A stretch of 64,000 bases of DNA from Butyrivibrio sp. LC3010 (GTDB taxonomy: Bacteria > Bacillota > Clostridia > Lachnospirales > Lachnospiraceae): assembly GCF_000424385.1 (NCBI RefSeq), contig NZ_AUJU01000026.1:1-64000 (forward strand), read 5' to 3'. The position numbers were made by a program, and so were the translations under genes. Positions 58,628-64,000 of the stretch are shown here, piece by piece (the stretch's first letter is position 1; each line of letters opens with the position of its first letter). The notes beneath the pieces are model-generated. The model searched no databases. It saw nothing but the letters and a program-made list of their open reading frames with translations, and was not told the origin of the DNA.

Positions 58628-58760
58628 TAAGCGTAAGAATAATTTGCCACTGATTTACGGAATTTTAATATAAATATCACCTCTTTGAAATATGAATTAA
58701 TATTATAATTTTTATAAGAGACTATGCATAATGGTGCTTGCTCTAAGAAGGAGTTTTATA

Positions 58761-59747
58761 ATGCTTCGATTTTTCATTCCTGAAAATGCTACTGCTATAA
58801 ATGAAATGATTGATGCTATAAACGGTCAGATAGAAGACTTTTTGAAAATGGAGCCCTTGCAGGATTTACTTGGAATTCTGGAGGTGGACATAGATACTAT
58901 AGGACAGGTTTGCAACGGAAGACTTAAAGCAAATGGAAAAGTGGTAGAGACGCAGGAACTGGCTTTACCCAAAAAACTGGAAGGTAAGAGAGAGGTTTTA
59001 TATCCGGTTATTCGGGAACTGGGTTTTTTTGATATCAATAAACCGTTAAGAAAGAAAAACAATCGCATTATTATCCTTGGAGGAAGCCTCACGGCATGCA
59101 AAGAGAGGACGGAATATGCGAAAAAATGGATAGATGATTCTACATGTTTTATTGATGGGCTTGCCTGTTATAGACCCATAAATCCTGTAGAGCGAAGTCC
59201 TTTGGCAGATTTTAAATGTGACACGGAATTTGGAGCTATGTCTGAGAGCTTTATCCATGTATTCAATCTTGATAAAGCCGAAGTAACAGAAGAATTCAAA
59301 GGTGACAGGAATCTCAATAGTATCTCGTGCATAAAAAAATACAGTAAAGATGGAGATTCTTTGGCCTACAGGATTTTTGCCGCGCCATCTACTGAGCCAC
59401 AGATTAGAAGAGCTGACACTGGAGATACAATTAAGTTCTATATCAGGAACAGTGATAAGAGAAATGCTGAAGATTCATTTTTGTTTGTGACTAATAACAG
59501 ATATTGTAATCGCCAGTTTATGCAGATTGCTTATTCGATGAAAGAAGAAAAGTATCCAATACATTTTGATGTAATAGGGTGCACTCCTGATGAACGTATA
59601 ATCCCTGTGGAAAGATATGATCCTTTTCAATTCATACAGGATCTTATAGGCGTAATCGATTGGGCTTATCGTTTCAGAGAAAAAAACTTGAGGGGCGAAA
59701 ATAATGAAGAATATTCTGGCGAAGTTACAAAGATTTGGAGGCGATGA
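58761..59747 (+). CDS. Unknown 328-residue protein
   Basis: No family was recognised with confidence. The protein is cytoplasmic (no signal or membrane segment). The middle has a beta-strand plus glycine loop (RIIILGGSLTACKERTEYA), and the C-terminal part DSFLFVTNNRYCNRQFMQI with FDVIGCTPDERI. This is faintly like YdcF/DUF218 folds. AAGGAG lies eight bases before the ATG at 58761. Its end overlaps the start of the MATE gene by 44 bases, which suggests translational coupling. It has eight cysteines. Confidence 0.72.
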   Translation: MLRFFIPENATAINEMIDAINGQIEDFLKMEPLQDLLGILEVDIDTIGQVCNGRLKANGKVVETQELALPKKLEGKREVLYPVIRELGFFDINKPLRKKNNRIIILGGSLTACKERTEYAKKWIDDSTCFIDGLACYRPINPVERSPLADFKCDTEFGAMSESFIHVFNLDKAEVTEEFKGDRNLNSISCIKKYSKDGDSLAYRIFAAPSTEPQIRRADTGDTIKFYIRNSDKRNAEDSFLFVTNNRYCNRQFMQIAYSMKEEKYPIHFDVIGCTPDERIIPVERYDPFQFIQDLIGVIDWAYRFREKNLRGENNEEYSGEVTKIWRR

Positions 59748-61478
59748 AGCTAATTCTGAGGTAGAGAAGAAATATCCATTGGACGAAATGTTTACTTTTG
59801 CAAAACTCCTGGAATATTTACCTCCACTTATTGTTACAAATATATCTACGCTGCTGCTTGTGACTGTAGACGGAATTGTTGCGGGTAATTTCGTAGGAGA
59901 CGATGCGCTTTCTGCTATAAGTATTTTTGCCCCGATTGAAACACTTATCGGAGCAATAACTGTAGTCCTTTCAACCGGGGCTTCGGCTGTTCTTAGCAAT
60001 AGAATCGGTGAAGTTGATGCGGATAGAATTATGCAGGCAAAAAAGACAGTTAAATATCTGTCAGTTCTTTTTGCACTGTTTCTTTCAATAATTCAAATTC
60101 CGATAGTGTTTTTCCTGATTGCATCATATCATCTGACAGATGATATGTATGAACTGACAAGAGCCTATGCAACAGGAATCATGATTTCAACTCCGTTTGG
60201 CCTTATCTCAACGATTGCTGTCTATCAAATGCAGATCATGGGCAAGATGAAAGCACTTATGAAGCTGGCTTTGATGGAGGGAATTCTTAATCTTATTTTG
60301 GATATATTTTTTACAGGCGTGCTTCACCTGGGTGTTGCCGGAACAGGTTATGGAACAGCATTGGCATGTGCAATCAGGTGCATTGTGACAATGGCTTATC
60401 TCTACATAGGAACTGATATTTTTAAAACAGGAAATGCCAGGATAAGTCTTGAAGACGCATGGGAGATTATTACAAAGGGATTACCTGATGCTTCATCCAT
60501 GCTGGTTACCGTTTTGCAGAATTATATTATGGTCAGGATACTGCTAAGCAGCTTTGGTCCGGATGGAGGTGTGATCAAAGGAGTATGCAGCTTCTGCTAT
60601 ACTTTGACCAATGTACTGATGAGTTCTGTTCAGGGTGCGGTTAGACCCATAATAGGTCTTTTTAACGGTGCTGAAAACAGAAAGGGTGTACGTGGACTTA
60701 TGAGGTGGGCATAATTCTGGTGGTGATTTTATCAGGCACTATGATCGTCTTTTTTGAGATATTCCCCGCAGTTATATTTAATCTTCATGGTGTGGATGAA
60801 ATTCCGGATGGAGGCTTAACATCTTTACGCATGTATGCATTATGCATTGGAGTATTGGGAGTAAATGCACTTTTCAGATTATACTTTTCGACAAGGGGAT
60901 TGCAGCATTTTTCAACAGTGCTGACTCTTGCAGGAAACTCCACGATGCCTGTATTTGCTTATATATATAGTATTCTTTTCCCGGCACCCTATATATGGCT
61001 GTCATATTTTTCTGCGGCAGTTATTATTCTTATTGTAAATGTTGTTAGATCCATTATCCTTATGAAAATTGATAAAGAAAATGAAAAGGCAGATCAGAAA
61101 AGAATTTATCTGTCTGTGGATTCTTCTGATGCTATAAATGCATCCAAGATGGTACAAAATTTTGCCATTACCAACGGATATTCTCTTATGATGGCAAACA
61201 GAGCAAGGCTTTGCATGGAAGAGATGGTGGCTTATTCTGTAAACTCATCTAAAAGAAATAATGTCAGAAACCAGATAATGTTTTCTTTTTCGGATGAGGA
61301 AGTTCTTTTTACCATGCTGGATGATGGCGCCTGCATCGTGTTTGATGAGGATAAGGAAAAGCAGACGATGATCACGAATAATTATGCATTATTGAAAGCA
61401 ATAGCAAAATCGATGCAATATCAATATGTGCTTGGACTAAATCATACAGTGCTGAAATTCCGGGAAGAAAGTGCATAA
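59704..61478 (+). pseudogene. MATE transporter fused to RsbW-like ATPase domain, frameshifted
   Basis: The first frame (59704-60714) encodes about 333 residues of a MATE-family exporter: MFTFAKLLEYLPPLIVTNIS, DGIVAGNFVGDDALSAISIF. The remainder continues in another frame from about 60705 (VGIILVVILSG) through four more helices. A C-terminal HATPase_c domain follows, of the RsbW/SpoIIAB type, with RARLCMEEMV (N-box region), LDDGACIVFD (G1) and LNHTVLKF. One base missing in ATGAGGTGGGC (about 60702-60708) explains the break. Repaired length is about 590 residues. GAGGGG precedes the start. Confidence 0.85.
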
Positions 61479-61518
61479 AAAGGTAATTAGCAAAAAGGAA
61501 ACGATTGGAAGAATCAGT

Positions 61519-63093
61519 ATGAGAAAATCAATCACTTTATTGTCTGTTTGTTTTATGACTGCCATGTCCCTCGCGGGATGTGGCAGTACAAATGCTCCTA
61601 CGGATGCAGCAACACAGGAAAATGGCGAGGAGAAATCCGACAAAACAAGCGAAGAGAAAACTGTAGAGAAGCCTGCTTCAGAGGCAGCGGAAGAAGTATC
61701 TGAAGCAGGTAGTTCCGAAAGCGAAACAGATACTGCCAAGGATGCTGAGGATGAAGAGAATCCTTATGACGGAGGCCCTGACTGGGTAACACTGGCTGAT
61801 GAGTTTGTTCTTCCCACAAGCCAGATGTGCATAGAGGATGCGGTGTCAAAGTATGCCATTACACTTTTTGACGGTGGTCAGTATCACGATTATGAAGGGG
61901 ATATCGGGGAGATAATCCCGCAGTACAAGGACAAGGACCTTGACGGCGATCATAAGCCGGATGTGATTAAGCGCGAAGGACAGCACTATGTCTTTGAGCT
62001 TACACGTAAAGGAACCTTTAAGACGGATGATTATTCATCAAGCCCCAATGAGGGTGAAGTTATCCAGTTTGCTGATCTTGCCTACAGAAATTTTGATGAG
62101 ATAGAGATAGTTCACTACACATTCGGAACAGGCGGTTCCAGTGTCTGGGATACAGCAATTTATTCCTGGCAGGACGAAGAGTGGAGAAAATTCCCTATCA
62201 TTGATAAAGATGGCGTCATCGATTCACATCAGCTTCAGAGGCTTATTGCCAAGGAGACGGGAAAATCTTATGAACCCGGATGCGTAAGAGTTGCAGATAT
62301 ACACATGCAATACATGCTTCTTGATCTGGGAAGCAAAGACGGCGCCGAGCAGACGTATGATTATAGAACGACATACCTGTATATGAATTTCTTTCCGGAA
62401 TATCTTAGGACTAGCGATTATGAATGTTCCGGGTTAAACGTTGACATGGGACTTATCAACTCATGGCCGTATGAGCTTTCTGGTGATCCGGTAGATCTTA
62501 CAGGGGATCTTGGTCGCAAGCTAAATATCTATTTGTCCAATTTTTCGGAACAAGGCTATGAAGATAAAGAATGGCCATACACTTATGCTCATTTTGTACT
62601 TGAGTGGTGCAGGATAAATGATCCTTCAAGTGTTAAGTTTTCTAATGACAGATATGGTGTTGACAGGGAAAAAATGTTTGAGATTCTCAACAGGTTCTTT
62701 GGGACCAATTTTGAAGAGGGAGATTATTACGACCTTACTGTCAATAATCCTTATAACGGAACAGTTGAATATGACGGTAATACTGACTGGTATTATGAGC
62801 CGGCTGCGGACGGAGAGATGTTTAGGAATAACGCATTTTCTGTAGTGTCGGATGCTCAGGAGATCAAGGGACAGTATAACCAAAAATTCCTGCGTCTGCC
62901 CTTTAAAGTATACAGAATTCCGGCGGAAGAGTATGAACTGCAAGGTATCGATAAGAAGTATTATTCGCTAAGTGCGGACGAAGCAGAAAAACTTGACAGG
63001 GAAGGTACACTGTACTATGCAGCAAATGGACTTGCCTTTCTTGAGGAAGTAGAGGATGGATATTGGCTTATCAGCTATAGTGTTTTTGAATAA
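61519..63093 (+). CDS. Unknown 524-residue lipoprotein
   Basis: The protein has a lipoprotein signal ending in LAGC and a 60-residue Glu/Ser/Ala linker. A large extracellular region follows without recognised domains, apart from a calcium-loop-like DKDLDGDHKPDV near residue 145. It is acidic and rich in aromatic residues. The ATG at 61519 is chosen because it starts the signal peptide and has GGAAG before it; the frame runs further upstream into the MATE gene. A similar but unrelated lipoprotein gene follows. Confidence 0.75.
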   Translation: MRKSITLLSVCFMTAMSLAGCGSTNAPTDAATQENGEEKSDKTSEEKTVEKPASEAAEEVSEAGSSESETDTAKDAEDEENPYDGGPDWVTLADEFVLPTSQMCIEDAVSKYAITLFDGGQYHDYEGDIGEIIPQYKDKDLDGDHKPDVIKREGQHYVFELTRKGTFKTDDYSSSPNEGEVIQFADLAYRNFDEIEIVHYTFGTGGSSVWDTAIYSWQDEEWRKFPIIDKDGVIDSHQLQRLIAKETGKSYEPGCVRVADIHMQYMLLDLGSKDGAEQTYDYRTTYLYMNFFPEYLRTSDYECSGLNVDMGLINSWPYELSGDPVDLTGDLGRKLNIYLSNFSEQGYEDKEWPYTYAHFVLEWCRINDPSSVKFSNDRYGVDREKMFEILNRFFGTNFEEGDYYDLTVNNPYNGTVEYDGNTDWYYEPAADGEMFRNNAFSVVSDAQEIKGQYNQKFLRLPFKVYRIPAEEYELQGIDKKYYSLSADEAEKLDREGTLYYAANGLAFLEEVEDGYWLISYSVFE

Positions 63094-63115
63094 AAAATTG
63101 TATTGATGGGGGCAT

Positions 63116-64000
63116 ATGATGAGAAGAAAACTAATATCTCTAATACTAATGTCTACAATTACCTGCTGTCTTTTTTCTGGCTGTGGCAAAACCGATAATG
63201 GTGGAGCGCAAACTGAGCAAAAGGAGAGCAGTGTATCTGAAGCTGCGCCTGAAACTTCTACCCCCAAAGACAATTCTGATGAAAAAGAACTGACTGAAAA
63301 CGAGCCTGCTAAGACTAGCGAGGGGGCACCGGCTCTTTTGCTAAATAGGGCTAGCAGAATTGAATGGAATGATGAGAACAAGCCAATAATTTATCATTAT
63401 TACAGTTATCTTACCCTTGAAAAAGAATATGCTGCTTCTCACAGTCTGCTTGCAGATAATCTTGATAAGGCAAGAGCTGATATTGAAGCCCGCGAGTACG
63501 ACAACTATATGATTTCCCTTGAAGAGGCAAAGGAATTTGAGGGCTCTGCATTTGAGTGCAGCTGGTATACGTACCTTCGAAGGTGCGACGACCGATATAT
63601 AAGCTTTGTAAATGAGTGCCGCAACAGTGGAACTTTTGATTTTGATGCCATTTCTTATTTGGCTCGCACATATAGTGTTGACAGCGGAAAAGAGATAGAG
63701 CTTTCCGACATCGTATCTGATGAAGATGCCTTCTTTGACCTCCTTGCAGCAAAGTTAAAAGAAAAGGTTGACGAGGACATGAATGATTACATGGGAGAGC
63801 CCTCAAACCTTGATCTTGATGGATTTAAAGACAGAATCAAAAAGAGCCTGGATTTCGAAGATGGCTCATGGACGCTTGATCCCCAGGGAATATCTTTCTG
63901 GTTTGACTCAAATGTCTTTTCACTGTTTTCAGCCTCGGCTACTGTATTCTTCTCGGAAGATAAGGATGGGAAAATTTTTAAAGAAGAGCTTGTAAAAGAC
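63116..64000 (+). CDS. Lipoprotein with RsiV/DUF3298-like domain (partial, runs off the window)
   Basis: The frame is open from the ATG at 63116 (a second ATG follows at 63119) to the window end, at least 295 codons. It has a lipoprotein signal (CCLFSGCGKT) and a Glu/Thr-rich linker. It then has sequence reminiscent of the DUF4163/DUF3298 pair: SYLARTYSVDSGKEIELSDIV and SWTLDPQGISFWFDSNVFSL. DUF3298 occurs in lysozyme-binding RsiV and in many lipoproteins. GGGGG precedes the start. The 3' end is not in the window. Confidence 0.75.
   Translation, partial: MMRRKLISLILMSTITCCLFSGCGKTDNGGAQTEQKESSVSEAAPETSTPKDNSDEKELTENEPAKTSEGAPALLLNRASRIEWNDENKPIIYHYYSYLTLEKEYAASHSLLADNLDKARADIEAREYDNYMISLEEAKEFEGSAFECSWYTYLRRCDDRYISFVNECRNSGTFDFDAISYLARTYSVDSGKEIELSDIVSDEDAFFDLLAAKLKEKVDEDMNDYMGEPSNLDLDGFKDRIKKSLDFEDGSWTLDPQGISFWFDSNVFSLFSASATVFFSEDKDGKIFKEELVKD

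Follow-up and report, generated by a model that had tools for sequence, protein, structure and literature searches.

A diverged, frame-broken MATE-HATPase fusion gene of Butyrivibrio sp. LC3010 and the possible link of its family to partner switching

Partner switching is mainly known as a way of controlling sigma factors, along with certain other targets in the cytoplasm. STAS proteins and SpoIIE-type PP2C phosphatases form its usual cast beside the anti-sigma serine kinases SpoIIAB and RsbW. In transporters of the MATE family, a conserved acidic residue in the first transmembrane helix (TM1) is important. A gene that potentially joins these two worlds was analysed in Butyrivibrio sp. LC3010, whose draft genome comprises 4.59 Mb in 66 contigs. 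The window, that is, the whole 64-kb stretch of DNA under analysis, covers bases 1 to 64,000 of the 89-kb contig NZ_AUJU01000026.1, and the gene lies at 59704-61478 on its forward strand, as do all the features located below on this contig. Its product is a predicted MATE transporter followed by a domain of predicted anti-sigma-kinase fold.

The nearest idea in the literature is CbrA, in which, according to the accessible parts of PMC7096432 and PMC13022988, an SLC5 transporter domain is joined to a histidine kinase. It resembles the present case in that a transporter and a HATPase-bearing signalling domain are found in one protein. As far as those parts go, it differs in the transporter family, and its signalling domain is a histidine kinase rather than an RsbW-type domain with STAS and PP2C partners. 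RsbU-RsbW fusions such as Rv1364c (PDB 3ke6, Z 13.6) also join an RsbW-type domain to another module of the pathway, but they contain no transporter domain. No MATE-RsbW fusion was found described in the open-licence PMC literature, as judged by titles and the beginnings of abstracts, and the combination may stand in domain-architecture databases without comment. The C-terminal domain of the window gene shares its fold with SpoIIAB and RsbW (PDB 1til, 6m37; Z 14-15). Unlike these kinases, the domain of the fusions is tethered to the membrane via the MATE part. With MATE transporters (PF01554; MOP superfamily) the fusions share MatE matches, MATE/MurJ-like helices and the TM1 Asp, whereas the cytoplasmic HATPase domain sets them apart from ordinary members.

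The gene consists of two open reading frames (ORFs) in different frames, so a repaired protein is needed for a single polypeptide. The first ORF (59704-60714, 336 amino acids) encodes the N-terminal half of the MATE domain and stops after the frame change. It matched Pfam MatE (4.3e-19, 69.2 bits against a cut-off of 24.9), and the TM1 Asp is kept as its residue 56. The second ORF (60705-61478, 257 amino acids, GTG start) encodes the remaining MATE helices and the HATPase domain, and its frame is open for about ten codons farther upstream. Both motifs quoted in the original prediction, which had been made from the sequence alone, are present in this second ORF (RARLCMEEMV and LDDGACIVFD).

Searched alone, the C-terminal half matched no HATPase family in Pfam or NCBIfam, and the cut-off of HATPase_c_2 (PF13581) was not reached. 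Its weak matches in these databases (Mid1, Tmem26, NuoJ and others) were all under their cut-offs, and phmmer against the PDB gave only weak unrelated matches (RRP40 exosome subunits, galactosidase; E 0.019 and worse). Although Pfam's models fail, a family profile built from 43 fusion relatives, with the window copy excluded, matched both halves, with 182.9 bits for the N-terminal and 90.8 bits for the C-terminal one. With ten upstream codons added, the latter reached 94.6 bits from profile position 307, approximately where the match of the N-terminal half ends. The AlphaFold model of the C-terminal half (44-row alignment) had a mean predicted local distance difference test (pLDDT) score of 89.9, and its first 17 Foldseek matches were chains from entries of the anti-sigma kinases SpoIIAB, RsbW and UsfX. 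In VIA-align, model residues 130-257 (61092-61475) gave Z scores of 15.2 with 8ih8_C (UsfX-RsfB entry), 14.9 with 1til_E (SpoIIAB) and 14.2 with 6m37_C (RsbV/RsbW). Residues 1-128 gave 10.0 with 4mlb_A (MATE-like) and 10.4 with 6nc9 (MurJ). The prediction of a MATE protein continuing into a HATPase domain of the anti-sigma-kinase type was thus borne out by the family profile and by AlphaFold, Foldseek and VIA-align, with one change of frame in between. A chance resemblance of the C-terminal half to HATPase domains was excluded by the fold and the family profile.

The two parts are also joined in relatives, so the claim of a fusion stands. Both Pfam MatE and HATPase_c_2 were over cut-off in all six first relatives tested; HATPase_c_2 was likewise over cut-off in the fusions of loci L077 and L088 and just under it in that of L074 (26.9 bits against 27.4). 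Three further loci in the host genome carry unsplit fusions of 590, 603 and 595 amino acids. Within the genus, a profile of the C-terminal part matched 71 of 79 genomes, standalone RsbW-like proteins being counted in. At least 77 distinct unsplit fusion ORFs, a few of them cut by contig ends, were found in at least 41 of the 79 genomes; as this set comes from regions fetched among the listed profile matches, both figures are minima. Of 398 genomes drawn from the phylum, 28 matched, and the 28 loci examined gave eight fusions outside the genus in seven genomes. In a GTDB scan that covered 84,980 species by a single genome each, 377 relatives were found, and the best 80 of these (hereafter the named loci, at least six of which coincide with genus loci) all had a fusion ORF, of 576-673 amino acids. 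According to their record titles, they belong to Lachnospiraceae, Oscillospiraceae, Erysipelotrichaceae, other Firmicutes and one Coriobacteriaceae bin. For 62 of the 80, the title mentions Butyrivibrio, a ruminant or a RUG/RUI bin, which is suggestive at most, genome collections being rich in such samples.

The neighbourhood of the fusions was compared with that of MATE-only genes, within 5 kb on a set of regions some of which are cut by contig ends. The controls comprised 43 top MatE scorers (from 40 regions) and, as these make the fusions look too separate, a closer second set of 38 genes nearest to the fusion profile (40 regions), 81 in all. A SpoIIE-type PP2C gene was near 19 of the 77 genus fusions versus one of the 81 controls (1/43 in the first set, 0/38 in the second), a STAS gene near 11 versus one, and a separate HATPase gene near four versus none. 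Counting any of STAS, PP2C, separate HATPase (RsbW) or HD-CE, the figures were 25/77 and 2/81. The closest linkage was that of a PP2C gene directly downstream on the same strand at 30 bases or less, which was found for 15 fusions in 15 genomes, ten of them with a 4-base overlap, and for none of the 81 controls. Outside the genus, five of five fetched fusions had a PP2C gene within 5 kb, three of them having been selected for a nearby separate RsbW. Among the named loci, 29 of 80 had a partner gene in this range (22 PP2C, 22 STAS and 17 HATPase, fused forms counted), at least three of the 29 being already in the genus set. Pfam confirmed STAS, SpoIIE, HATPase_c_2 and HD-CE in representative neighbours. 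The coupling to a partner-switching pathway proposed in the original prediction was therefore supported for the family, whose neighbour linkage exceeds that of MATE-only genes. The gene upstream of the fusion, which had been put forward as its partner, was not supported in that role.

The fullest locus, L077, has the order STAS, MATE-HATPase, HD-CE, STAS/APH, RsbW and SpoIIE, and the whole set was found in few loci. In the STAS neighbours that were read (L077-L079 and L326, the latter downstream of the window gene), the ISSAGL motif is kept with its Ser, which we take to be the phosphorylatable site. In nine of the 77 fusions, the ORF continues past the HATPase domain into an HD-CE domain (PF24391; Pfam-checked in one, L088). 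These three-domain MATE-HATPase-HD-CE ORFs of about 890 amino acids are found at L088:5708-8407, L089, L092, L122-L125, L127 and L080. HD-CE was also seen as a separate gene right after the fusion in L077 and in L087, the latter in the host genome. PP2C-HATPase fusions of the RsbU-RsbW kind occur near some MATE fusions (Pfam-checked in L148). Pfam further identified STAS-APH kinase-like proteins beside MATE fusions (L110:4428-6014 and L077:6986-8176), that of L110 with a C-terminal HATPase_c_2 domain; an APH-type kinase within partner-switching loci looks unusual. In L216 and L258, STAS-HATPase ORFs of similar length stand beside the MATE fusions.

The ATP site was compared in 76 fusion domains. 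The N-box retains its Glu-Glu in all 76 and its Asn in 61; 73 have the G1 Asp and 74 the lid Gly. The complete set of E, N, D and G is present in 60 of the 76 fusions versus seven of seven standalone RsbW-type neighbours, and the ATP lid of the fusions is mostly without the GGLG of standalone kinases. Loss of the Asn is concentrated in the fusions followed by a PP2C gene (12/15 versus 3/61 of the others). As for the window copy, an intact ATP site, which the original prediction had proposed to check for, was not found: the N-box reads EEMVAY (61218-61235), with Glu-Glu kept and Tyr in the place of the Mg-binding Asn, and an Asn stands where the lid Gly is conserved. The Asp of the G1-box is kept (DDG, 61320-61328). 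In the MATE part, the TM1 Asp is present in 43 of 43 MATE-only proteins, in 54 of 67 fusions and in the window copy. Several polar residues (Gln, Asn and Arg; e.g. QQ, QN) conserved in the ordinary MATEs of the genus are replaced in the window copy and in most fusions. Provided that these residues line the cavity, which was assumed, their change weakens the case for ordinary drug efflux and leaves that for a MATE fold untouched. The kept TM1 Asp together with the changed polar residues would be compatible with another substrate or with a sensor role.

The origin of the fusions was approached with two MATE trees made by FastTree. In the first (43 controls), fusions and MATE-only genes were on opposite sides of one branch. 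In the second (81 controls), the 67 fusions used, the window gene and five long MATE proteins fell on one side together with two MATE-only genes, with a Shimodaira-Hasegawa-like (SH-like) support of 99. On this tree the label 'fusion' needs six changes, or three when fusions and MATE-only genes only are counted. With about 2 changes per site, the window gene has a long branch, and where exactly it belongs is uncertain. These sequences are most simply explained by a single early fusion followed by rare losses, but the fusion may also have been gained repeatedly. The five long MATE ORFs were counted neither as fusions nor as controls, and the fusion counts are therefore lower bounds. Two of them (L290:4793-6523, 576 amino acids, and L305:6339-8063, 574 amino acids) have very diverged tails that look like HATPase when read by eye and were missed by the profiles; a STAS gene lies 20 bases and a PP2C gene 398 bases away from the one in L305.

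The state of the window copy itself was judged from its frame break and its surroundings. Read in the frame of the N half (12 codons), the frame-change zone (60675-60714) raises the family-profile score by 14.7 bits, against 3.8 bits in that of the C half (10 codons), which makes a lesion closer to its 3' end probable. Beyond the window, a 99-amino-acid STAS gene with the ISSAGL motif (contig 68232-68531, profile match) is followed by a 120-amino-acid ORF (68545-68907). The latter begins with what resembles a membrane helix and retains no more of SpoIIE than its C-terminal part (profile positions 105-191). This pair (L326:1098-1773, equal to contig 68232-68907) is about 6.8 kb downstream of the fusion and 4.2 kb past the end of the window. 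As the host genome has five STAS and four SpoIIE matches in total, a STAS gene within 7 kb would be expected by chance in about 1-2 percent of cases. Because the frame break, the degenerate ATP site and the truncated phosphatase are found together, the locus is probably a decaying module, and the gene itself is most likely in decay. In other genomes (G005:C18, G009:C172, G018:C43, G103:C7, G112:C42, G014:C45 and G105:C29), the C-terminal part of the fusions was seen as fragments that are short or contain stops, which suggests that family copies decay frequently, although such fragments may abut contig ends. It appears doubtful that the split arose from faulty assembly or sequencing, with an intact gene in the living cell. 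In favour of this, neither frame is otherwise interrupted, each half fits the family profile on its own side of the join and the genome is a 66-contig draft, but the degenerate site and the SpoIIE remnant indicate decay, as do the partial and stop-bearing fragments elsewhere. Programmed -1 frameshifting, by which an unbroken gene would give a short and a long product, is very improbable. An in-phase heptamer of the X XXY YYZ type, A AAG GGT, does occur in the zone just before the frame change (60681-60687); it is probably coincidental, since the profile favours a change farther downstream, and the ATP-site losses and the truncated phosphatase again fit decay.

Taken together, we lean slightly towards counting the window gene, diverged and frame-broken as it is, among a family of MATE-HATPase fusions serving as the membrane arm of partner-switching modules. 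From the observed domain order, conservation and gene linkage, we infer the following course of docking and gating. A PP2C phosphatase and an RsbW kinase would set the phosphorylation state of a STAS protein, which would dock on the cytoplasmic HATPase domain of the transporter, as RsbV does on RsbW, and once docked would gate the MATE domain. In the fusions with a PP2C gene directly after them, the HATPase domain would be a docking pseudokinase that reads the switch, and probably not a kinase, because the Mg-binding Asn is mostly lost there; fusions keeping E-N-D-G may still phosphorylate STAS. Somewhat more tentatively, the family may be seen as a divergent, perhaps single-origin class of MATE proteins that is set by, or feeds, STAS partner switching, with one pseudokinase branch having its own phosphatase and another one being a three-part protein with HD-CE. 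If true, the target of partner switching would here be a transporter in the membrane, not a sigma factor. Through a recurrent fusion of a kinase fold with a transporter, the pathway would gain an effector or sensor at the membrane, and MATE proteins would come under phosphorylation-dependent control. It would also assign a role to many genes whose plain MATE annotation, as we assume it to be, gives no hint of regulation.

Several points weigh against a partner-switching membrane arm. No STAS, PP2C, standalone RsbW or HD-CE match was found among the ORFs of the 64-kb window, the downstream remnants being 6.8 kb off, and the first tree places the window gene at the base of the MATE-only side. 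The frame break could still be an assembly error, the species being represented by a single genome. Many conserved polar MATE residues are changed in the fusions, so that transport is only putative, and the loss of Asn is mostly confined to one clade. The nominal Fisher p values for the neighbour counts (PP2C 4e-6, STAS 2e-3, any partner 2e-7, abutting PP2C 1e-5) are too small and overstate significance because the genomes are related. Of the 77 genus fusions 52, and of the 80 named loci 51, have no partner-switching gene within 5 kb; their partners may be encoded elsewhere and act in trans, or be lacking. The same 52 fusions, and the lid mostly without GGLG, would fit a HATPase domain that serves the pump just as a tail for structure or nucleotide sensing, with an incidental linkage to partner-switching genes. 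This is improbable in view of the association itself (25/77 versus 2/81, abutting phosphatase 15/77 versus 0/81) and of the partner genes at 29 named loci. The signal might also run in the opposite direction, the MATE domain being the input: whether it holds substrate, or its state in transport, would determine how actively the HATPase domain phosphorylates STAS, with release of a sigma factor or another target, as in a CbrA-like transceptor. The changed polar residues fit a receptor, many of the fusions could be kinases given the 60 of 76 with all four ATP-site residues, and CbrA as outlined in the accessible parts of PMC7096432 and PMC13022988 is a precedent for a transporter-kinase fusion. 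This direction was nevertheless considered rather unlikely, because the fusions most tightly linked to PP2C are mostly without the catalytic Asn, and a separate HATPase near the fusion (4/77 in the genus; 17/80 among the named loci, partly as STAS or PP2C fusions) makes a second kinase redundant there. For the membrane arm in the host genome, matches to STAS, STAS (404-amino-acid open frame), RsbW-like and SpoIIE proteins are clustered at contig C2:4066-10828, and this cluster could serve the unsplit fusions in trans.

The ORF upstream of the fusion (58731-59747, the gene at 58761 in the original prediction) overlaps the MATE half by 44 bases, as had been claimed. Its co-occurrence with the fusion was not borne out. 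No relative was found in 144 related genomes besides its own, and among 392 genomes of the order it has one relative in each of four other genomes, a sparse distribution. MATE or HATPase matches were not seen among the ORFs listed in 9.8-17 kb around these four relatives, and the upstream gene was thus rejected as fusion partner. The model of its protein (mean pLDDT 74.5) had no PDB match at E 0.001 or better, with YdcF at rank 9 (E 0.065), and one of the relatives matched DUF218 under the cut-off. Judging from these relatives and the weak fold match, the protein is possibly of a distant DUF218/YdcF type. Its small, orphan-like family has GGS...R and AAPS..P..RRA.T.DT-like motifs.

On the other side of the fusion, lipoprotein-like genes follow on the same strand (window 61471-64000), and a 327-amino-acid ORF (L326:3-986) precedes the downstream STAS gene, also on the same strand.

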